From assembly GCF_002968335.2 (NCBI RefSeq), contig NZ_CP134398.1:496001-560000 (forward strand): 64,000 nucleotides of DNA. The letters run 5' to 3'. Position numbers and translations under genes: made by a program. How positions within the stretch are numbered: the stretch's first letter is position 1; each line of letters starts with the position of its first letter. Shown piece after piece: positions 9,207-17,111 of the stretch. The notes beneath the pieces were generated by a model. It was not told the DNA's origin. It made no database searches and saw only the letters and a list, made by a program, of their open reading frames with translations. This stretch comes from Mycobacterium sp. ITM-2016-00316. GTDB lineage: Bacteria; Actinomycetota; Actinomycetes; Mycobacteriales; Mycobacteriaceae.

Positions 9207-10064
9207 ATGAACGAATCGGCACAAGGTAAACCGGCGAAGGCGCTGAAGAAGCGCCGCCCGCCCAAGATCGCCAACGACGTCTATGAGGCCGAGTTGTTTC
9301 GCCTCCAGACCGAATTCGTGAAGCTGCAGGAGTGGGTGAAGCACACCGGCGCGCGCGTCGTCGTGGTCTTCGAAGGCCGCGACGCGGCCGGCAAGGGCGG
9401 CACGATCAAGCGGATCACCGAATATCTGAGCCCGCGCATCGCCCGGATCGAGGCACTGCCCGCGCCCAGCGATCGTGAGCGCGGCCAGTGGTACTACCAG
9501 CGCTACATCTCGCAGTTGCCCGCCAAGGGTGAGATCGTGCTGTTCGACAGGTCCTGGTACAACCGCGCGGGAGTCGAGTTCGTGATGGGTTTCTGCACTC
9601 CCGCCGAGCACGAGCTGTTTCTGCGTCATACACCGGTTTTCGAGCAGATGTTGATCGAGGACGGGATCCTGTTGCGCAAGTATTGGTTCTCGGTGTCCGA
9701 TGACGAGCAGCTCCGCCGGTTCAAATCGCGACTGAAAGACCCTGTGCGGCAATGGAAGTTGTCGCCGATGGACATGGAATCGGTGTACCGCTGGGAGGAC
9801 TACTCGCGCGCCAAGGACCAGATGATGGTGCACACCGACACCCCGCTGAGCCCGTGGTACGTGGTGGAGTCCGATATCAAGAAGCATGCGCGACTGAACA
9901 TGATGAACCATCTGCTGTCGACCATCGACTACCACGCCGTGAAGAAGCCGAAGGTCACTCTGCCCAAGCGCGCGGCGCCCAGCGAGAGCTACCAGCGGCC
10001 GCCGCGGGAGCTGTCGACCTATGTCGACGATTACGTGGCGACATTGATGGGTGATCCTGAGTAG
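9207..10064 (+). CDS. ppk2: Polyphosphate kinase 2 family protein
   Basis: A 285-residue PPK2-type P-loop kinase that transfers phosphate between polyphosphate and nucleotides. It shows Walker A GRDAAGKGG (residues 57-65), the lid-region YYQRYISQLPAKGEIVLFDRSWYNRAGVE with Walker B FDRSWYNR, and the tail ending STIDYHAV. The basic N-terminal KALKKRRPPK precedes the domain, as in class I actinobacterial PPK2. Direction (NDP versus NMP phosphorylation) cannot be decided from sequence. The start is ATG 9207, 18 bases after the transporter operon. Confidence 0.9.
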   Translation: MNESAQGKPAKALKKRRPPKIANDVYEAELFRLQTEFVKLQEWVKHTGARVVVVFEGRDAAGKGGTIKRITEYLSPRIARIEALPAPSDRERGQWYYQRYISQLPAKGEIVLFDRSWYNRAGVEFVMGFCTPAEHELFLRHTPVFEQMLIEDGILLRKYWFSVSDDEQLRRFKSRLKDPVRQWKLSPMDMESVYRWEDYSRAKDQMMVHTDTPLSPWYVVESDIKKHARLNMMNHLLSTIDYHAVKKPKVTLPKRAAPSESYQRPPRELSTYVDDYVATLMGDPE

Positions 10065-10108
10065 GGCCACGCCTGGTTCATCGCTGCGCCAGCGGGTAAC
10101 CGTGGGCC

Positions 10109-11062
10109 ATGACGAGCATCGGATACTTCCTGTCGGCCGAGCAGTACAACCCCAAAGAGTTGGTCGATCAGGCGCGACGCGCCGAGGCCGCCGGCTTCGA
10201 CCGGCTGTGGATATCCGATCACTTCCACCCGTGGAACGACGAGCAGGGCGAGAGCGCGTTCGTCTGGGGTGTCATCGGTGCGCTGTCCGAGGTGACATCG
10301 CTGCCGGTGTCCACCGCCGTGACCTGCCCGACCATCCGGATCCACCCGGCGATCCTCGCGCAGGCGGCCGCCACCGCGGCGGTTCAACTCGACGGGCGGT
10401 TCGTCTTCGGTGTCGGCAGCGGGGAGGCGCTGAACGAGCACATTCTCGGTGACCCGTGGCCGTCTCCGGGCGTGCGACTGGAGATGCTCGAGGAGGCGGT
10501 GGAGCTCATCCGTCTCCTGCATACCGGGAAGGTGATCAGCCACCATGGTCTGCATTACGAGGTCCAGGAGGCCCGGATCTACACCCTGCCCGAGCAGCCC
10601 GTGCCGATCTACGTGTCCGGATTCGGCCCCCAGTCCGCAGAACTCGCCGGACGCATCGGCGACGGCTACTGCCTGACGATGGCCGATGCCGACCTGGTGA
10701 AGACCTTCCGCGCCGCGGGCGGCGGCGACAAGCCGGTGCAGGGCGGCATGAAGGTGAGTTGGGATCGTGACACCGACGCCGGCATCGACGCCGCGCACCG
10801 CCTGTGGGCCAACGACATGTTGCCCGGCCAACTCGCGCAGACCTTGCCGCGACCACAGGATTTCGAGGACGCGATGTCGCTGGTCCCACGGGAATCCATG
10901 ACCGAGAGCATCACCTGCGGGCCGGATGTGGACAAACATGTCGCGCAGGCGCGTTCGTACCTGGACGCCGACATCGACGAGGTCTACGTCCAGCAGATCG
11001 GACCCGACAAAGAGGGCTTCTTCGCCGCCTGGGAGAAGGACGTGCTTCCCCAGCTCAGATGA
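10109..11062 (+). CDS. F420-dependent LLM-class oxidoreductase (Fgd-like, TIGR03557 type)
   Basis: A 317-residue luciferase-like TIM-barrel protein starting MTSIGYFLSAEQYNPKELVDQARRAEAAGFDRLWISDHFHPW, with GRFVFGVGSGEALNEHI and ending QQIGPDKEGFFAAWEKDVLPQL. This matches the F420 family close to glucose-6-phosphate dehydrogenase (Fgd), but I cannot assign the substrate; true Fgd should be checked for its phosphate-binding residues. It probably uses coenzyme F420 for hydride transfer in the cytosol. It is the last gene before the less GC-rich island. Confidence 0.85.
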   Translation: MTSIGYFLSAEQYNPKELVDQARRAEAAGFDRLWISDHFHPWNDEQGESAFVWGVIGALSEVTSLPVSTAVTCPTIRIHPAILAQAAATAAVQLDGRFVFGVGSGEALNEHILGDPWPSPGVRLEMLEEAVELIRLLHTGKVISHHGLHYEVQEARIYTLPEQPVPIYVSGFGPQSAELAGRIGDGYCLTMADADLVKTFRAAGGGDKPVQGGMKVSWDRDTDAGIDAAHRLWANDMLPGQLAQTLPRPQDFEDAMSLVPRESMTESITCGPDVDKHVAQARSYLDADIDEVYVQQIGPDKEGFFAAWEKDVLPQLR

Positions 11063-11354
11063 TCGGCTCCTCGTGCGGGTCCTCTACCTCGATCCCATCC
11101 CGGGGCGGGTGTGGCGAAAACCGGCACGCCACCACTGCAATTCAGCTGGCGCACAGCGGAATCAAGGACCTTCGGTGGGGCGCGTATCACGCTCCGCGCC
11201 GGATCGCGCGGCCCGACACCTAGTACGCCGGTCTTGGCATCGCAGAACCGCTGCCCGCCCAACTCACCGATATCCCCCAAACGAGTACTGAGCCAGCGTC
11301 CCAGGGTAACTATGGTTCGTTGTCCAGTTCGAGCAGGCGGCAAGTCCGAGACCG
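11063..11354. other. Non-coding left flank of the island; nothing recognised
   Basis: This 292-base stretch between the F420 enzyme and the end of the MBL-fold gene contains short open frames on both strands, but none has a recognisable motif or a clear ribosome-binding site. I see no terminator hairpin and no direct repeat of the tRNA-Gly 3' end that would mark an attachment site. Confidence 0.5.
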
Positions 11355-12449
11355 CTATAGCTTCATACCCGGCGAAAATGGCGTCACGTCCCAATTGGAG
11401 GCGCCGTGCGCCGGTCTACGGGCCCTAATCTGGCCGCTCAGACCTTCCGTCCGGACGTTCTGTGCAATACCGCTTAACATCGACTGAGTGCGACGCACGG
11501 CCCTAGCCGGCGCGGGACGCTTCGGGTTTGCCGAGGAATACACTGCCGACGCGCGATCCTTCAGCCGCCGAACGTCTTCGGGCTGAGGGCGCGGCGTGAC
11601 TCCAGCTCTGAACGGCGCCAACACCGCGACGACGTCATCGGTTAAAAGCTGCGTCCACACGTCTTCATGGTGAGCGTTGGGTGCCCCATGATGAGGAACT
11701 TTGAACAGACTGGCAAGGGGTTCCGGCCGAAACGCAGCCAGAACTCCATTCCATCCACACCCAGACGGACCCCGAAGTAGGTCTGCTCCCAGTATGACGT
11801 TGGTGCTTCCTACCGTAATGAGGAGTGCTACCGCGAGGTCGTTCGGATCAGTGGAGCGTAGACGTTTTCGTTGATCAGCGGTACTCAGGCCAGCGGCGAT
11901 TTCAGCCCTCGCTCGCTCAAAGGCTTCGCTTGACGGCGACATCGCTGTCACAGCCGCAGCAGGAGTATCTTGAGTGCCTTGGCGGGAGAACAAGGGTAGC
12001 TCCTGTTGCGCGTGCTTTAGTCTGCGCCCGACAGGCCGTGTTTTTACCGTCTCGAAGATCTGGCGGTACTCGCTGCGAATGGTTTTGCGAAGTTGCGCCT
12101 CGATATCCGCATCTGCGTTAACGTCGTGCAAGAACTCCTCGGTGGTTAGTGCCGCCGAGCAAATAAATGAGGCCGATTCGCAAGCATCGTACACGCGGGA
12201 AAGTCCTGCGATGTGATCGTCATGTGCGTGGGTACCAACGACGAGCTTTACAGCTTTTGAAGCGGTCACGCCGATGCGATGTAAATACTGGAGAACTGGA
12301 ATTTCGCCAGATTTTTTATCAACACATGAATCCACTATTATCCACTCACCGCCACCTATGTGGACGGCAATTGACTCGCCTTTGCCGGGGCCGAAGATGG
12401 ATACCTCGATCTCGTCATGACGTGGCGGGTCACCGTGCAAACTAGTCAA
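11355..12449 (-). CDS. ComEC-like metallo-beta-lactamase-fold hydrolase, third gene of the island operon
   Basis: A 364-residue protein. Metal ligands are complete for an MBL fold: VDSC (Asp40), THAHDDHIAG (His74, His76, Asp78, His79), LGADLL and VPHHGA, the last two in the style of the ComEC/Rec2 nuclease-like domain. Residues ~100-190 form a charged insert. There are no membrane helices, unlike ComEC, so it would be a free cytosolic hydrolase, possibly acting on nucleic acid or a nucleotide phosphodiester; that is inference. The likely start is TTG 12449, with a second in-frame TTG at 12440; both lie in or beside a perfect palindrome spanning the junction with the upstream gene. It is read together with the two preceding genes. 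The base composition is visibly less GC-rich than the flanks. Confidence 0.75.
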   Translation of the reverse strand: MTSLHGDPPRHDEIEVSIFGPGKGESIAVHIGGGEWIIVDSCVDKKSGEIPVLQYLHRIGVTASKAVKLVVGTHAHDDHIAGLSRVYDACESASFICSAALTTEEFLHDVNADADIEAQLRKTIRSEYRQIFETVKTRPVGRRLKHAQQELPLFSRQGTQDTPAAAVTAMSPSSEAFERARAEIAAGLSTADQRKRLRSTDPNDLAVALLITVGSTNVILGADLLRGPSGCGWNGVLAAFRPEPLASLFKVPHHGAPNAHHEDVWTQLLTDDVVAVLAPFRAGVTPRPQPEDVRRLKDRASAVYSSANPKRPAPARAVRRTQSMLSGIAQNVRTEGLSGQIRARRPAHGASNWDVTPFSPGMKL

Positions 12450-12463
12450 TGTAATTGACTAGT
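12441..12463. promoter_or_regulatory. Perfect 10-bp palindrome across the gene-2/gene-3 junction of the island operon
   Basis: ACTAGTCAAT-GTA-ATTGACTAGT: perfect 10-base arms with a 3-base spacer, containing the stop codon of the middle gene and the TTG start of the MBL gene. In RNA it would fold into a hairpin hiding the start of the MBL gene until a ribosome finishes the upstream gene. Alternatively it is an operator. Confidence 0.55.
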
Positions 12464-13050
12464 TCAGCCAGTTGGTCGCGCGCCCTTCGCTTTTGATCGG
12501 CGACCTCGTCTTCGGTCCATCTGCCCAGTCGACGAAGGCGAATCGCTGAGGTCGTCGTGGGTCCTCCTGGCGCTCGCACCGTTCGCACCGTGACATACAC
12601 AACATCGCCGGGTTGCACTTCGTCGCCCTCAGCGAGTTTGTCCCTTGCGAAGTCGGCGATCACCTCAGGCCCCTCACCGAAGTGCGTCAATTCCACCGAG
12701 AACAGATCATCATCGACCTCGAGGACTCGGCCCTCCCACTTTTCCATCCCGGTAACTTTGACCGAAGGGGTAGTCCATTGCTCACTGGCTTGGTCGTCGA
12801 CTCGGTCGAATGCCGCCTTTACCGCTGCCAACTGCTTTTTGCGCAGTTCGCGAAACGCTTGCTCTCGCACTACATCCGCATCCACAGCGGGTTGCTTCAA
12901 CGCGCCGATACTAGTTTCAGCTGACACCGTGGCAGGCGCTGAGCCGTACTGTTCGCGGAGCCATTCGCGCCGGTATTTGCTCCAGCCGCGGATGGTCTCA
13001 GACGATACATAGCTACGAGCGGAGTTCGCCATTTCCGGGGCAAGTGTCAC
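12442..13050 (-). CDS. Uncharacterised protein with a C-terminal beta-barrel-like domain, second gene of the island operon
   Basis: I do not recognise an assigned family for this 202-residue protein. The N-terminus (SSETIRGWSKYRREWLREQYG) and the middle (EQAFRELRKKQLAAVKAAFDRV) are charged and helical. The C-terminal half (EKWEGRVLEVDDDLFSVELTHFGEGPE ... VQPGDVVYVTVRTVR ... AIRLRRLGRWTEDE) alternates short beta strands like a small OB/S1-like barrel, followed by a helix. My recollection is that proteins of this look occur widely, unannotated, next to a homologue of the upstream gene. GTG 13050 overlaps the upstream stop as GTGA; ATG 13032 is an alternative. No signal peptide or membrane segment is present, so it is cytosolic. 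Confidence 0.65.
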   Translation of the reverse strand: MTLAPEMANSARSYVSSETIRGWSKYRREWLREQYGSAPATVSAETSIGALKQPAVDADVVREQAFRELRKKQLAAVKAAFDRVDDQASEQWTTPSVKVTGMEKWEGRVLEVDDDLFSVELTHFGEGPEVIADFARDKLAEGDEVQPGDVVYVTVRTVRAPGGPTTTSAIRLRRLGRWTEDEVADQKRRARDQLAELVNYID

Positions 13051-13766
13051 TGAATCCTCACTAGAGCCTCTACTACGTCATCTGACCGCTTTATACATGA
13101 CGCCCAAACCGTCGAGAGTATTTCGCTGGCGATCGGTATGTTGGCCGCGGACGGTTCACTTGGTGCGTTCGTGGACTCCATCGACCACGCTTCGTCCCGC
13201 GAGGTCGCCCGGTGTTCGACAGTTCGCAGGTTGAAGTGCTCGTTGTGCGATACGAAGATGTGCCCAGCGAACCGGAATGACGGTTCAACTTGTATTTGAA
13301 TTCGTCCGCCGTGGGAATCGGGCCGTGAACCCCAGATAGTTACATCTCGTGTTCCCGGGAACTCGACGAGAGGCTCCCAGAAGTCCTTTGGAGCTAAACG
13401 ATCGCCGATAGCATGGTATTGGTCAGGAGTCCGTGCTTGGAAGTGCAATGCACGGTTAATGCCGACCGCAGCAATGGGCGTATGAGGCAATGTATTCAGT
13501 ATCCCCATAGCAACATCTCGTACACGCTCAAAATCTGCGGGATCTGCGGTGGCAAGTTGAAGTGTATCCGGAACTATTTGGCAATCGAGCCATCCAGTAC
13601 TGAATGAAGCAAATTCACTCGTAATCACCTCGATCTTCGCATCTGCGAAGTCCGAAGGGCCGATGAGATTTTGTTGGAGCAGCCACAGTGGCGAAAAAAT
13701 CGCGGCATTGAAATGCCCTCGAACGACAACGGTGATGCCGTCGAGAGCGACTACAGTGTTGGCCAA
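13047..13766 (-). CDS. Uncharacterised protein, first gene of the island operon
   Basis: A 239-residue cytosolic protein without a family I can name. Conserved-looking blocks are VVVRGHFNAAIFSPLWLLQQNLI, FASFSTGWLDCQIVPDTLQL, LPHTPIAAVGINRALHF, RLAPKDFWEPLVEFPGTRDVTIWG and GGRIQIQVEPSFRFAGHIFVSHNEHF. They suggest an alpha/beta fold with many beta strands rather than a known enzyme motif. The start TTG 13766 is supported by GGGGA just upstream and an in-frame stop directly before it. It leads the three-gene unit by GTGA overlap. Function unknown; the island setting makes a role in mobile-element conflict plausible, but nothing in the protein proves it. Confidence 0.65.
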   Translation of the reverse strand: MANTVVALDGITVVVRGHFNAAIFSPLWLLQQNLIGPSDFADAKIEVITSEFASFSTGWLDCQIVPDTLQLATADPADFERVRDVAMGILNTLPHTPIAAVGINRALHFQARTPDQYHAIGDRLAPKDFWEPLVEFPGTRDVTIWGSRPDSHGGRIQIQVEPSFRFAGHIFVSHNEHFNLRTVEHRATSRDEAWSMESTNAPSEPSAANIPIASEILSTVWASCIKRSDDVVEALVRIQ

Positions 13767-14171
13767 TTACGTCCCCAGTCCGCTGCAACGCCTGCCAATC
13801 GTCGGCGTCCGTCTCGCCGACTCTACAAGAGCGCCCGTCGACATGGGCCCACTCGGCCTACTGGAGATATGCGACCCCCAACCGAGTTCCGGTCCGGGAT
13901 CGCGACCTCGATCAAGTCTCCAAACTGGCTACTGGCGGTAGGGGTCCGCGGCCACTCGGTTGCACCTTGACGGGTACCGGTGGTGTCTTCGCTGCATGAA
14001 GTCGGCACTCAGATCGGATCCCTGACACTGCGGATCTGTGCTCATTCGCACGACGACGTCTCGATGCTCGCCGAATGACTTGCTGGATCGTCGGAACAAA
14101 AGCTCCATCGGAGATGTGACCCCTGAGGGGTTCATTCGAACAGATTCCAACAGTATTACTGCTGGTCAACG
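13767..14171. other. Gap between island operon and tRNA-Gly; probable promoter region
   Basis: 405 bases with no supportable gene. The promoter of the island operon must lie here on the minus strand. Directly downstream of the tRNA 3' end is a stem CCAGCAGTA/TACTGTTGG (14150-14168) and further on a short palindrome ACCCC-TGA-GGGGT (14119-14131); either may end tRNA transcription. Short open frames on both strands have no motifs. Confidence 0.5.
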
Positions 14172-14245
14172 TGGAGCCGATGACGGGAATCGAACCCGCG
14201 TATTCAGCTTGGGAAGCTGATGTTCTGCCATTGAACTACATCGGC
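14172..14245 (-). tRNA. tRNA-Gly (anticodon CCC)
   Basis: On the minus strand the acceptor stem is GCCGATG/CATCGGC, with a D-arm of GTTC/GAAC. The anticodon stem is TCAGC/GCTGA around loop TTCCCAA (anticodon CCC after the invariant T33), and the T-arm GCGGG-TTCGATT-CCCGT follows. The discriminator and CCA are encoded (14172-14175). It reads GGG glycine codons. Its 3' end faces the less GC-rich island, the usual geometry for integration into a tRNA gene. Confidence 0.95.
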
Positions 14246-14302
14246 ATGCTCGATCAGGAAGGCTAGCATCCAGGCCTTACCAGTTCATGAGATGGGGGAT
14301 TG

Positions 14303-14734
14303 ATGAAACGTCTCGCCGCCGTCCTGGCGACCTTGGCCGTCATCTCGGCACCCACCGCCGCTGCCACACCCGCCGAGGGCGACGTCGAACGCACCGACCT
14401 CGCCGAAGGCACCAGCTCCGAGCCCGTGCAGATCGACACCTCGGGCCCGACCACGTTCTACGTCCAGGAACTGCTGCTGCACCCGCCGTCGAGCAGCGGC
14501 TGGCACACCCACCCCGGCCCGGAACACACCGTCATCACCGGTGGCACGGTGTCCATCCAGACCGCGCAGCAGTGCGCGTCGACGCCGTATCTGGCCGGGC
14601 AGGCCATCTTCATTCCGGCCGGGGTGCCGCACATCGTGCGCAACGACAGCCCGCACGACGCCAACGCGGTGGTCACCTACACGTTGCCCGCCGATGCACC
14701 GGTGCGCGCCGACGCGCCACCGGCATGTCCATGA
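14303..14734 (+). CDS. Secreted cupin-domain protein
   Basis: A 143-residue protein with a Sec signal peptide (MKRLAAVLATLAVISAPTAAA). The single cupin domain has motif 1 WHTHPGPEHTVITGG (metal-binding His residues) and motif 2 AGQAIFIPAGVPHIVRN. It lies outside the cytosol and probably binds one metal ion; substrate and activity are unknown. ATG 14303 follows GGGGG. It stands alone between tRNA-Gly and dcd. Confidence 0.75.
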   Translation: MKRLAAVLATLAVISAPTAAATPAEGDVERTDLAEGTSSEPVQIDTSGPTTFYVQELLLHPPSSSGWHTHPGPEHTVITGGTVSIQTAQQCASTPYLAGQAIFIPAGVPHIVRNDSPHDANAVVTYTLPADAPVRADAPPACP

Positions 14735-14757
14735 CCTGAGCCGGTTACGCTCGTCGC

Positions 14758-15327
14758 GTGCTGCTCTCCGATCGCGATATCCGCGCCGAGATCGCCGCGG
14801 GCCGGCTGGCGCTGGACCCGCACGATGACTCCCTCGTTCAACCGTCGAGCATCGACGTGCGCCTGGACAGCCTGTTCCGGGTCTTCAACAACACCCGCTA
14901 CACCCACATCGACCCGGCGCTGCGCCAGGACGACCTGACCACGCTGGTCGAGCCCAAGGAGGGTGAGCCGTTCGTGCTGCACCCCGGCGAGTTCGTGCTC
15001 GGCTCCACGCTGGAGCGCTGTGCGCTGCCCGACGATCTGGCCGGCCGGCTGGAGGGCAAGTCGTCGCTGGGACGGCTCGGGCTGCTGACGCACTCGACGG
15101 CCGGATTCATCGATCCGGGCTTCACCGGGCACATCACCCTGGAGCTGTCCAACGTCGCCAACCTGCCGATCACGCTGTGGCCGGGGATGAAGATCGGGCA
15201 GCTGTGTCTGCTGCGGCTGACCAGCCCGGCCGAGCATCCGTACGGCTCCTCGGCGGCCGGTTCCAAGTACCAGGGGCAGCGTGGGCCCACCCCGTCGAAG
15301 TCGTATCTGAACTTCGTCAAACCCTGA
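14758..15327 (+). CDS. dcd: dCTP deaminase (probably bifunctional deaminase/dUTPase)
   Basis: A 189-residue trimeric dUTPase-fold enzyme of pyrimidine deoxynucleotide synthesis. Conserved parts are [37 protein letters not shown] with the catalytic-site Ser/Arg, [20 protein letters not shown] (catalytic Glu) and the C-terminal [15 protein letters not shown]. The M. tuberculosis homologue is known to convert dCTP to dUMP in one protein; the close match suggests the same here. GTG 14758 is the start. Confidence 0.95.
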
Positions 15328-15476
15328 ACCCGCGTAGGGTTTATTTCGTGCTCTAGCTAACGCCGCCGACTGTAACGACGGCGCTGCTCACGGCGATGAA
15401 CTATCTAGTTGCCGGTTTCTGTCGCCTGCACGGCGTCGACGAAACGAGTCACGTAGCAAACACTTTGGAGGGGCAA

Positions 15477-17111
15477 GTGGACATCGTATTAGGTGTATCG
15501 ATGACACCTACCACGGTGCGCATGGTGCTGGTGGAGGGCGAGAAGGGCGACGGCGCAACCGTCGACCACGATGTCTTCGAGGTCTCGGCATCGGGTGACT
15601 CAGCAACGCTCAGTGCGGCAGATCAGGTCGTGCAGGCGGTGCTCGGAACCCAGGAGAGTGCGCAGGCCGGCGGGCACCATCTGAAATCGATCGGGGTCAC
15701 CTGGACCGATCACGCCGACGCCTCCGCGCTGCGCGACGCGCTCGATGCTCACGGCATCAACGACGTCATGTTGGTATCCGAACTGCACGCCGCCGGCGCG
15801 CTGGCCCAGGCGGCCGGTAGGGCCGTCGGCTACGGCTCCACGGCCTTGTTGTTCCTCAACCGCGACACCGCCACCCTGTCGGTGGTGCGCGGTGACGACG
15901 GCTCGGTGGTCAAGGTGCTCAGCCGCAGCCTGCACAGCACCGACGCGATGGCCGTCCTGGCCGATATGGCCGCCGCGGTCGCCGGGCAGGACACCGCGCC
16001 GGAGGGCATGTTCGTCGTCGGCTCCGGTGTCGACGTGGCGTCGGTGAAAGAGCATCTGAGCGATCTCGTCGACATCCCGGTCAGCGCTCCGGAGGAATCC
16101 GGGCTTGCGCTGGCGCGCGGCGCGGCCCTGGCCTCGGCGAGCGCCCCCATGTTCGAGGCCTCCACCGTCGGCCTGGCCTACTCACTGGACCCCGACGGTC
16201 CCACTGCGGGATCCGTACTGGCCGCCGCCGCCGACACCCAGCTGGCGCCCTCGTCGGTCCCGAACTACGTCGACGTCCCCGACGATCCCGCCGACCTGGA
16301 CGCCGAACCCGTGCCGGAGGGCCACAAGCCCTTCCTGCTGGTCGGCAGCATGGCGTCGATCTTCGTGATCGGCGTCGTCGCGCTCGCGATCTCGCTGGCC
16401 GTCAGCATCCGTCCGACCGCCGATGAGCGCCCCGCGCCGGCGCGCGCCGCGGTCGCGCCGAGCGTGCAGGCCCCCGCTCCGAAGCCGGTACCCGAAGCGC
16501 TGCCGGTGCAACCGGCCCCGGCTCCGCCCCCGGCGCCCGCCGAGACCATCAAGGCGCCCATCCCTGTTGTGCAGCAGGCTCCGCAACAGGCGCCCCGGCA
16601 GGTGTACGTCGAGCAGGCCCCCGTACCGCAGGCGCCGGCCCCGGCCCCCGCCCCGGTGGCCCCGCCGCCGGCTCCCGCTCCGGTCGCGCCGCCCGTGGTG
16701 CCGCCGGTATGGACACCGCCCGTGGTGCTGCCACCTCCGGTGATCGTGCTGCCGCGCCCGCAGTGGCCGGTCTGGCGTCCGCCGTGGGAGCAGAAGCCGC
16801 GCCAGACGCAGCAGCCCGACTATCCGGACTATGACGACGACGACTACCCGAGTTACCCGCAGCAGCCGCAGCCTCAACAGCCGCAGCCGCAGCAGCCCAC
16901 GTCGCAACAACCGCAGCAGCCGCAGTGGCCCTGGCCGACCGGCGGCAACGGTGGAAACGGTTCGGGTGGAGGCAATTCCGAGGGTTCCCGGGGTGACTCC
17001 GGTTCGCGTGGCGACTACGGCCGTGGCGAGTCCGGTGGCCGCGGCGGCGACCAGGGTGGTCAGGGCGGCGGTGGCCAGGGTGGCAATTGCTTCCTGATCT
17101 TCTGCAACTGA
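15477..17111 (+). CDS. Mycobacterial actin/Hsp70-fold membrane protein with Pro- and Gly-rich tail (DUF7159-like)
   Basis: A 544-residue protein. Residues 1-~240 resemble an ASKHA (actin/Hsp70) fold: MDIVLGVSMTPTTVRMVLVEG at the start and later GYGSTALLFLNRDTATLSVVRG and GLALARGAALASA. One transmembrane helix (~286-308, LLVGSMASIFVIGVVALAISLAV) follows, then a long Pro/Ala-rich stretch, a Gln/Pro stretch and a Gly/Arg/Ser-rich C-terminus ending GGNCFLIFCN. The topology is probably N-terminal inside, low-complexity tail outside. GTG 15477 is chosen for GGAGGGG eight bases ahead. The function is unknown; its layout parallels the Hsp70-like protein at 36365-38155. Confidence 0.75.
   Translation: MDIVLGVSMTPTTVRMVLVEGEKGDGATVDHDVFEVSASGDSATLSAADQVVQAVLGTQESAQAGGHHLKSIGVTWTDHADASALRDALDAHGINDVMLVSELHAAGALAQAAGRAVGYGSTALLFLNRDTATLSVVRGDDGSVVKVLSRSLHSTDAMAVLADMAAAVAGQDTAPEGMFVVGSGVDVASVKEHLSDLVDIPVSAPEESGLALARGAALASASAPMFEASTVGLAYSLDPDGPTAGSVLAAAADTQLAPSSVPNYVDVPDDPADLDAEPVPEGHKPFLLVGSMASIFVIGVVALAISLAVSIRPTADERPAPARAAVAPSVQAPAPKPVPEALPVQPAPAPPPAPAETIKAPIPVVQQAPQQAPRQVYVEQAPVPQAPAPAPAPVAPPPAPAPVAPPVVPPVWTPPVVLPPPVIVLPRPQWPVWRPPWEQKPRQTQQPDYPDYDDDDYPSYPQQPQPQQPQPQQPTSQQPQQPQWPWPTGGNGGNGSGGGNSEGSRGDSGSRGDYGRGESGGRGGDQGGQGGGGQGGNCFLIFCN

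Follow-up and report, generated by a model that had tools for sequence, protein, structure and literature searches.

In the defense systems Hachiman, AVAST, and Canu, infection sets free metallo-beta-lactamase (MBL) nucleases that act as effectors; according to PMC12799240, these nucleases are proenzymes that a protease opens. Canu (CanABC), as described there, is a three-gene system whose ComEC-like MBL nuclease is encoded downstream of partner proteins that switch it on. We analyzed a 64,000-nucleotide stretch of the Mycobacterium sp. ITM-2016-00316 genome (NZ_CP134398.1, positions 496,001 to 560,000; "the window") and found a unit of three overlapping genes (the "trio") with a comparable layout, in which two partner genes (genes 1 and 2) precede a gene for a soluble ComEC-like MBL-fold enzyme (gene 3). 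Unlike Canu, in which CanA is a caspase, the trio has partners that match no protease family. The trio keeps its composition, gene order, and strand over a wide spread that takes in mobile elements among other locations. We read it, with a probability of about 0.58, as a mobile and self-contained anti-phage module of the abortive-infection type, with a nuclease that would be held and triggered by the products of genes 1 and 2.

13047 to 13766, minus strand: gene 1, 239 amino acids (aa), TTG start; supported by its open reading frame (ORF), homologues, structure model, fold search, and conservation in 86 trios.
12442 to 13050, minus strand: gene 2, 202 aa, GTG start; supported by its ORF, structure model, fold matches, and conservation in 86 trios.
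12523 to 12762, minus strand: domain of gene 2 with a predicted oligonucleotide/oligosaccharide-binding (OB) fold, residues about 97-176.
11355 to 12449, minus strand: gene 3, 364 aa, TTG start; soluble ComEC-like MBL-fold enzyme, predicted metal-dependent DNase.
12213 to 12230, minus strand: MBL motif HAHDDH of gene 3 (H74, H76, D78, and H79), seen in the sequence and kept in 84-85 of 86 trios.
12440 to 12464, no strand given: perfect inverted repeat with 11-nt arms at the gene 2 stop and gene 3 start.

Gene 3 used as a query against IMG/VR retrieved 31 viral loci, 29 of which contain a complete trio. With two plasmid loci included, all-against-all clustering at 1e-3 places gene 1 at position -2 in 32/33 loci and gene 2 at -1 in 31/33, counts that include near-copies among the viral loci (e.g., L015, L016, and L018). 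A profile of gene 1 that draws only on actinobacterial sequences recovers all 32 at 5e-9 or better. The viral misses are L038, for genes 1 and 2, and L028, in which gene 2 is not recognized; in L038 (5798-7831), which has the weakest viral MBL match, the two ORFs upstream are similar in size to genes 1 and 2 but fall outside their clusters, and are possibly a diverged version. On plasmids, tblastn with gene 1 found one Adhaeribacter plasmid (31% identity), where the gene is followed downstream by a 197-aa hypothetical protein and then an MBL protein, the same order as in the window, and a search with gene 3 led to a conjugative Pantoea plasmid with the same trio layout. Neither gene 1 nor gene 3 matched any phage record.

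Scanning one genome per species with gene 3 yielded at least 72 loci, 66 of them with a strong gene 3 (below 1e-30). Among the matches listed, 59 strong loci have at least 1.5 kb of upstream DNA, and they contain gene 1 in 57 cases, gene 2 in 58, and both in 56, figures for the linkage of genes 1 and 2 that an earlier note on this stretch had put up for checking; order and strand are kept in 57/57 of the strong genomic loci listed with both partners. Three loci depart from the pattern. L059, which looks decayed, lacks gene 1 and retains gene 3 next to a short gene 2; in L099, genes 2 and 3 are present and no gene 1 is recognized; and in L102, where genes 1 and 3 are present, the ORF at the gene 2 position is not picked up by the profile. 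Six more strong loci lacking gene 1 or both partners have less than 1.5 kb of upstream DNA, and six weak MBL matches (L109-L114) have neither gene 1 nor gene 2. In a quick tree, 54 genome rows have a phylum assigned and together represent 21 phylum labels, and the presence of the same trio in distant phyla shows that the unit is more than chance. Between the three proteins, the distance matrices give correlations of 0.83-0.86, a level reached in 0/500 permutations for each pair and to which shared descent contributes. Among the labeled rows, one trio is found on a contig of a metagenome-assembled genome labeled as a Thermoplasmata archaeon (L047), a kind of bin that can hold stray contigs.

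In the clades reached, we found no sign of the changing partners that the earlier note had mentioned for gene 1-gene 2 pairs in other bacteria. Gene-1-led scans of viral contigs (A9, 12 loci; A11, 4 loci) and a gene-2-led scan (A10, 14 loci) gave no other partners, and only contigs already known through gene 3 came up, as they did in two first scans of viral contigs (1 locus each); the reach of these scans is limited to relatives of the rows used, and the gene-1-led ones covered viral contigs, not all genome contigs. What is supported of the interpretation in that note is a mobile, sporadic three-gene unit in a variable locus.

Residue conservation was evaluated in a set of 86 trios, which leaves out L028, L037, L038, loci lacking any of the genes, identical gene 3 proteins, and trios with a gene 1 E-value above 1e-8 or a gene 3 E-value above 1e-30. 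Gene 3 has the MBL metal motif HxHxDH with the downstream Asp and His, and H74, H76, D78, H79, D223, H253, and H254 are each conserved in 84-85 of the 86. In a profile search against PDB sequences, gene 3 matches the ComEC nuclease domain (9ic4, 1.5e-10; 30bt, 4.1e-9) in two colinear stretches each, with the HxxxDH and FKxPHHGS halves of the MBL domain aligned in order. The nuclease domain is the sole region of ComEC that aligns with this 364-aa protein, in line with the earlier description of an enzyme with all MBL ligands and no membrane part, and the TIGR00361 (ComEC/Rec2) model reaches only 15.3 bits against a cut-off of 190, over model positions 444-522 of 663. Unlike ComEC, gene 3 has about 46 extra residues between the two MBL halves (profile 90-194 versus 9ic4 chain 86-144). 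The same MBL family is known in phages as PHROG 28593 (1.4e-40 over residues 15-312 of the window gene 3), a protein cluster without function that does not include the partners. Taken together with the intact ligands, the ComEC similarity leads us to infer that gene 3 is a DNase.

Effector MBL proteins of defense systems are also related to gene 3, and RTasMBL of DRT and LmuA of Lamassu (MBL form) are its best PADLOC matches, at 1.7e-5 and 1.2e-6 for the window protein and 1.6e-11 and 3.3e-7 for the E. coli protein, respectively. Unlike in DRT and Lamassu, the window genes 1 and 2 resemble neither a reverse transcriptase nor an SMC protein. The defense-system models (RTasMBL, LmuA, and Avs1a) match gene 3 more weakly than the ComEC nuclease domain does, the Avs1a model giving the window protein 16.4 bits (cut-off 420), and the 6A-MBL anti-phage system model NF058524 scores 15.1 bits for the window and 28.4 bits for an E. 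coli member (cut-off 220). The same comparisons bear on an anti-defense role, in which the MBL protein would hydrolyze a nucleotide signal or small molecule, like the phage enzyme Apyc1, and shield the mobile element from host immunity. Prophage and plasmid carriage would suit such a role, and the L031 protein weakly matches Anti-Pycsar Apyc1 (E 0.0019, 18.1 bits, cut-off 50), but the window gene 3 has no Apyc1 match at E up to 1, the resemblance to ComEC nuclease domains extends over both halves and is accompanied by similarity to the effector MBLs of defense systems, and gene 3 has two near-constant partners. We consider an anti-defense function improbable.

The Hachiman (HamMAB) and AVAST type 1 (Avs1a) systems resemble the trio in having an MBL-fold ComEC-like nuclease, which there sits beside its activator, and according to PMC12799240 the downstream partner there carries a trypsin-like protease domain that sets the nuclease free. 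The trio has no such partner, and, unlike in Hachiman and Avs1, its MBL gene comes last. At E up to 1, neither Pfam nor NCBIfam gives a protease family for genes 1 and 2 of the window, and three further trios gave none at E up to 0.1 apart from a chance-level aminopeptidase row for one gene 2 (E 0.045, 12.3 bits, cut-off 529). The gated nucleases HamM, Avs1a, and CanC are characterized by two disordered insertions that cover the active site; the corresponding observation for gene 3 is the stretch of about 46 additional residues, relative to ComEC, between its two MBL halves. As far as the sequences indicate, the novelty here is an apparently protease-free pair of partners on a known type of effector, the ComEC-type MBL enzyme.

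Gene 2 offers a possible clue to the trigger. Its model (pLDDT 76.4, pTM 0.46) has a variable N-terminal part with helices, followed by an OB fold, and we conclude from the prediction that the protein contains an OB-type small beta-barrel. The leading fold matches are C-domains of eIF5A and cold-shock domains, the Foldseek rows also include CusF, RPA, and mitochondrial single-stranded DNA-binding protein, and all matches are modest in score, none of them under 0.001. A single Ser is conserved: S168, which lies within the OB fold and is kept in 75/86 trios. The gene 2 of L015 approaches the Pfam family Rep_Org_C (1.8e-4, 22.2 bits, under the cut-off of 27). A role in DNA processing or mobile-element maintenance (competence or recombination), with a ComEC-type nuclease and an OB-fold DNA binder acting together outside any conflict, could accommodate the ComEC similarity of gene 3 and the single-strand binders among these OB folds, but the trio includes no membrane channel, which also sets it apart from ComEC/Rec2 itself.

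Gene 1 is predicted with high confidence as a compact alpha/beta protein (pLDDT 96.0, pTM 0.91), and its fold search gave no confident match to a solved structure, with the best rows near the noise level of the tool. The structural comparison suggested for genes 1 and 2 was informative for the OB fold of gene 2 and gave no assignment for gene 1. The kinase (phosphagen or protein arginine), AdoMetDC, and SerRS-like rows obtained for gene 1 were not accepted as a fold assignment. The model does resemble that of an unnamed viral protein, A0A515MGR4 (1.3e-10, TM-scores 0.57/0.65). Conserved positions in the 86 trios include W28, D84, G102, N104, G121, P126, W130, and N175, and no Cys, His, or Ser is found among the positions kept in at least 80%. 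Gene 1 also weakly matches phrog_36401, of unknown function (3.8e-4).

Both partners stay outside the family models searched, in line with the earlier note, and no housekeeping homologue of either was found. Neither gene 1 nor gene 2 has a Pfam or NCBIfam match above cut-off in the members scanned, the window genes have no PADLOC (2023) match at E up to 1, and profiles of both give nothing against PDB sequences at E up to 1. A relative of gene 1 (P0048, L025:4502-5305) bears the UniRef name "TIGR04255 family protein," and 0/45 gene 1 members match the TIGR04255 model at E up to 1. With hhalign, gene 1 aligns with a profile of 7 TIGR04255 family members at probabilities of 13.5% and 29.7% (E 0.0021 and 0.0006), colinearly around the GIN region, and the values fall with the larger profile of 26 family members (4.4-4.5%, E 0.009); a reversed profile gives 0.6% (E 0.088), genes 2 and 3 give 0.3-0.4% (E 0.17-0.21), and a single-sequence comparison gives 0.7% at a different place. 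These profile comparisons are suggestive at most of gene 1 being a distant branch of the TIGR04255 family.

A RefSeq product name links gene 1 to phage defense, as a label only: WP_000143147.1, the E. coli gene 1 protein, is called "anti-phage protein" in two records and "hypothetical protein" in one (the records giving it the two names are NZ_CP104526.1, NZ_CM149554.1, and NZ_CP027584.1). No NCBIfam (June 2026) model matches the near-identical gene 1 of L015 at E up to 0.1. In the titles and abstract openings listed by literature searches we found no description of the trio, an earlier one being possible in Brenes and Laub 2025 (Cell Host Microbe), and a search by five RefSeq accessions returned 0 records. 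The words MBL and lactamase are absent from the main texts of PMC9519451, PMC13092281, and PMC9122126, the last of which presents a P2 system of three genes without clear domains, which we considered as a candidate.

In E. coli, a DNA similarity search detected the version of the trio seen in L015 in 17/5426 genomes, at 99% or more in 14, and all copies are chromosomal. In lambdoid prophages of this species the trio lies between the antiterminator Q and the holin, on the opposite strand, in all four regions read. On viral contigs, 61 flanking ORFs chosen from 22/31 loci include 8 matching the antitermination Q-like phrog_79 and 4 matching the holin phrog_126, with portal, endolysin, and integrase families also present (among the 25 of 140 families listed).

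The constant make-up of the trio, its intact nuclease-type enzyme, its partner with an OB fold, and its placement as cargo together point to an infection-triggered nuclease module. The trio probably serves defense, to judge from its prophage cargo position, its type of effector, and the RefSeq label. We propose that gene 3 would be a ComEC-type MBL nuclease that stays inactive as long as the cell is healthy, that gene 2, with its OB fold on a flexible and partly helical N-terminal part, would recognize or deliver single-stranded nucleic acid from phage replication, and that gene 1 would act as the regulatory partner coupling the gene 2 signal to gene 3. Infection would then release the nuclease to degrade DNA, which would stop the phage and probably the cell too. 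A more specific possibility, put forward tentatively, is that the trio represents a third activation route for immune ComEC-type MBL nucleases, one that needs no protease and in which the OB-fold protein would sense phage nucleic acid and form a lock with gene 1, whose fold is so far unclassified. If correct, this would amount to protease-free control of a nuclease class that Hachiman, AVAST, and Canu activate by cleavage, in a widespread cargo-type immune module, spanning the 21 phylum labels, that is not in the family libraries searched. The E. coli copies make the trio directly testable.

The main rival to defense is a toxin-antitoxin-like addiction module, in which gene 3 would be a toxic nuclease held by gene 1, gene 2, or both, and would be kept for stabilizing prophages, plasmids, and islands, not for sensing phage. 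The gene arrangement is compatible with it, with fixed partners, overlapping genes, and the likely toxin last. We confirmed the tightly overlapped three-gene unit with TTG, GTG, and TTG starts reported earlier, in its coordinates, its overlaps, and its palindrome: genes 1 and 2 share a GTGA overlap, and genes 2 and 3 overlap by 8 bases inside the perfect inverted repeat, whose 11-nt arms are separated by a 3-nt spacer. The predicted starts are likely to be right because close relatives start at about the same place in alignments. Carriage on plasmids, viral contigs, and a tRNA hotspot (see below) would likewise suit addiction, but two conserved partners and a large enzyme are unusual for such modules, and the trio points away from the late operon in prophages, an orientation that suits cargo of use to the lysogen. 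Its mechanism also overlaps with that of abortive infection, and we regard addiction as unlikely, although less so than the other alternatives. As an observation in its own right, the inverted repeat spans the gene 2 stop and the gene 3 start, with translation coupling or regulation as candidate roles.

The genes beside complete trios show little linkage to defense islands. From 185 flanking ORFs, 163 of which are 700 aa or shorter, 148 were drawn at random and scanned, and PADLOC at 1e-8 matched with six models only, of 1 or 2 members each (PsyrA, 2; two ShosA models, 1 each; mad2, 1; two viperin models, 1 each). Among the 25 of 134 Pfam families listed there are 2 DprA (DNA_processg_A), 2 DruA, and 2 phage integrases, the remaining families are mixed and many of them metabolic, and known defense genes are scarce. 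Both results count against the anti-phage reading, and the association with defense islands raised in the earlier note holds weakly at best. The trio travels alone, mostly outside defense islands, and a defense function, if real, would for that reason be missed by guilt-by-association searches. The two DprA proteins among the 148 add to the case for DNA processing, but the trio is sporadic and is carried as cargo in prophages with replication genes of their own (e.g., L039), and we find a DNA-processing role very unlikely, marginally more so than anti-defense.

In the window, the trio occupies a variable segment next to a tRNA gene.

11063 to 14169, no strand given: variable segment with the trio; both flanks align with the relative G230 and the segment does not.
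14172 to 14245, minus strand: tRNA-Gly(CCC), whose 3' end is an integration site in relatives.

The position on the 3' side of tRNA-Gly(CCC) described before is correct, the tRNA (14245-14172) being on the same strand as the trio and 405 bases upstream of gene 1. The lower G+C content (GC) relative to the flanks also agrees with that description: it is 0.566 in the trio and 0.667 in the whole window, and only 5 of 616 sliding stretches of trio length (step 100) are equally low, all 5 of them overlapping the trio. GC at third codon positions is lower as well, 0.53-0.63 in the trio genes versus 0.85-0.91 in three neighboring genes. The second copy of the tRNA 3' end that might mark an insertion was found neither in the window nor elsewhere near the site, and the ORF list, checked by eye, shows, apart from the trio genes, no integrase-like ORF between 11063 and 14169.

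Relatives show what else this site can hold. G230, the nearest relative examined, matches the left flank (window 10063-11062) at 94% and the right flank (window 14170-15977) at 88%, and between these flanks it has 7.7 kb of other DNA in place of the 3.1 kb with the trio. A 48-bp copy of the tRNA 3' end (94% identity) delimits the G230 insert. The insert contains two copies of a 440-aa gene that we take to be transposase-like; the site (L165, G230:C1:11000-23000) also contains a 236-aa ORF of unknown kind. A partial copy of the tRNA 3' end (43-54 bases) is present in at least 22 of 60 genus genomes searched with the tRNA and flank, at least 15 of which have the partial copy and the whole tRNA on one contig. 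These partial copies across the genus, together with the different cargo in G230, identify the tRNA-Gly(CCC) site as an integration hotspot for cargo in the genus.

The trio is rare in the surroundings of its own lineage, and the near-universal presence at this locus in mycobacteria that would have spoken against a mobile module was not observed, with the trio in 2/248 genus genomes and unrelated DNA at the site in G230. Profile searches found gene 1 in those two of the 248 genomes, its own included, and in 1/396 genomes of the phylum, and a single-sequence search found it in 1/201 genomes of the family. In the second genus genome (G366) the trio lies about 2.7 kb from a tRNA cluster, and a gene farther along is presumably integrase-like, judging from its motif.

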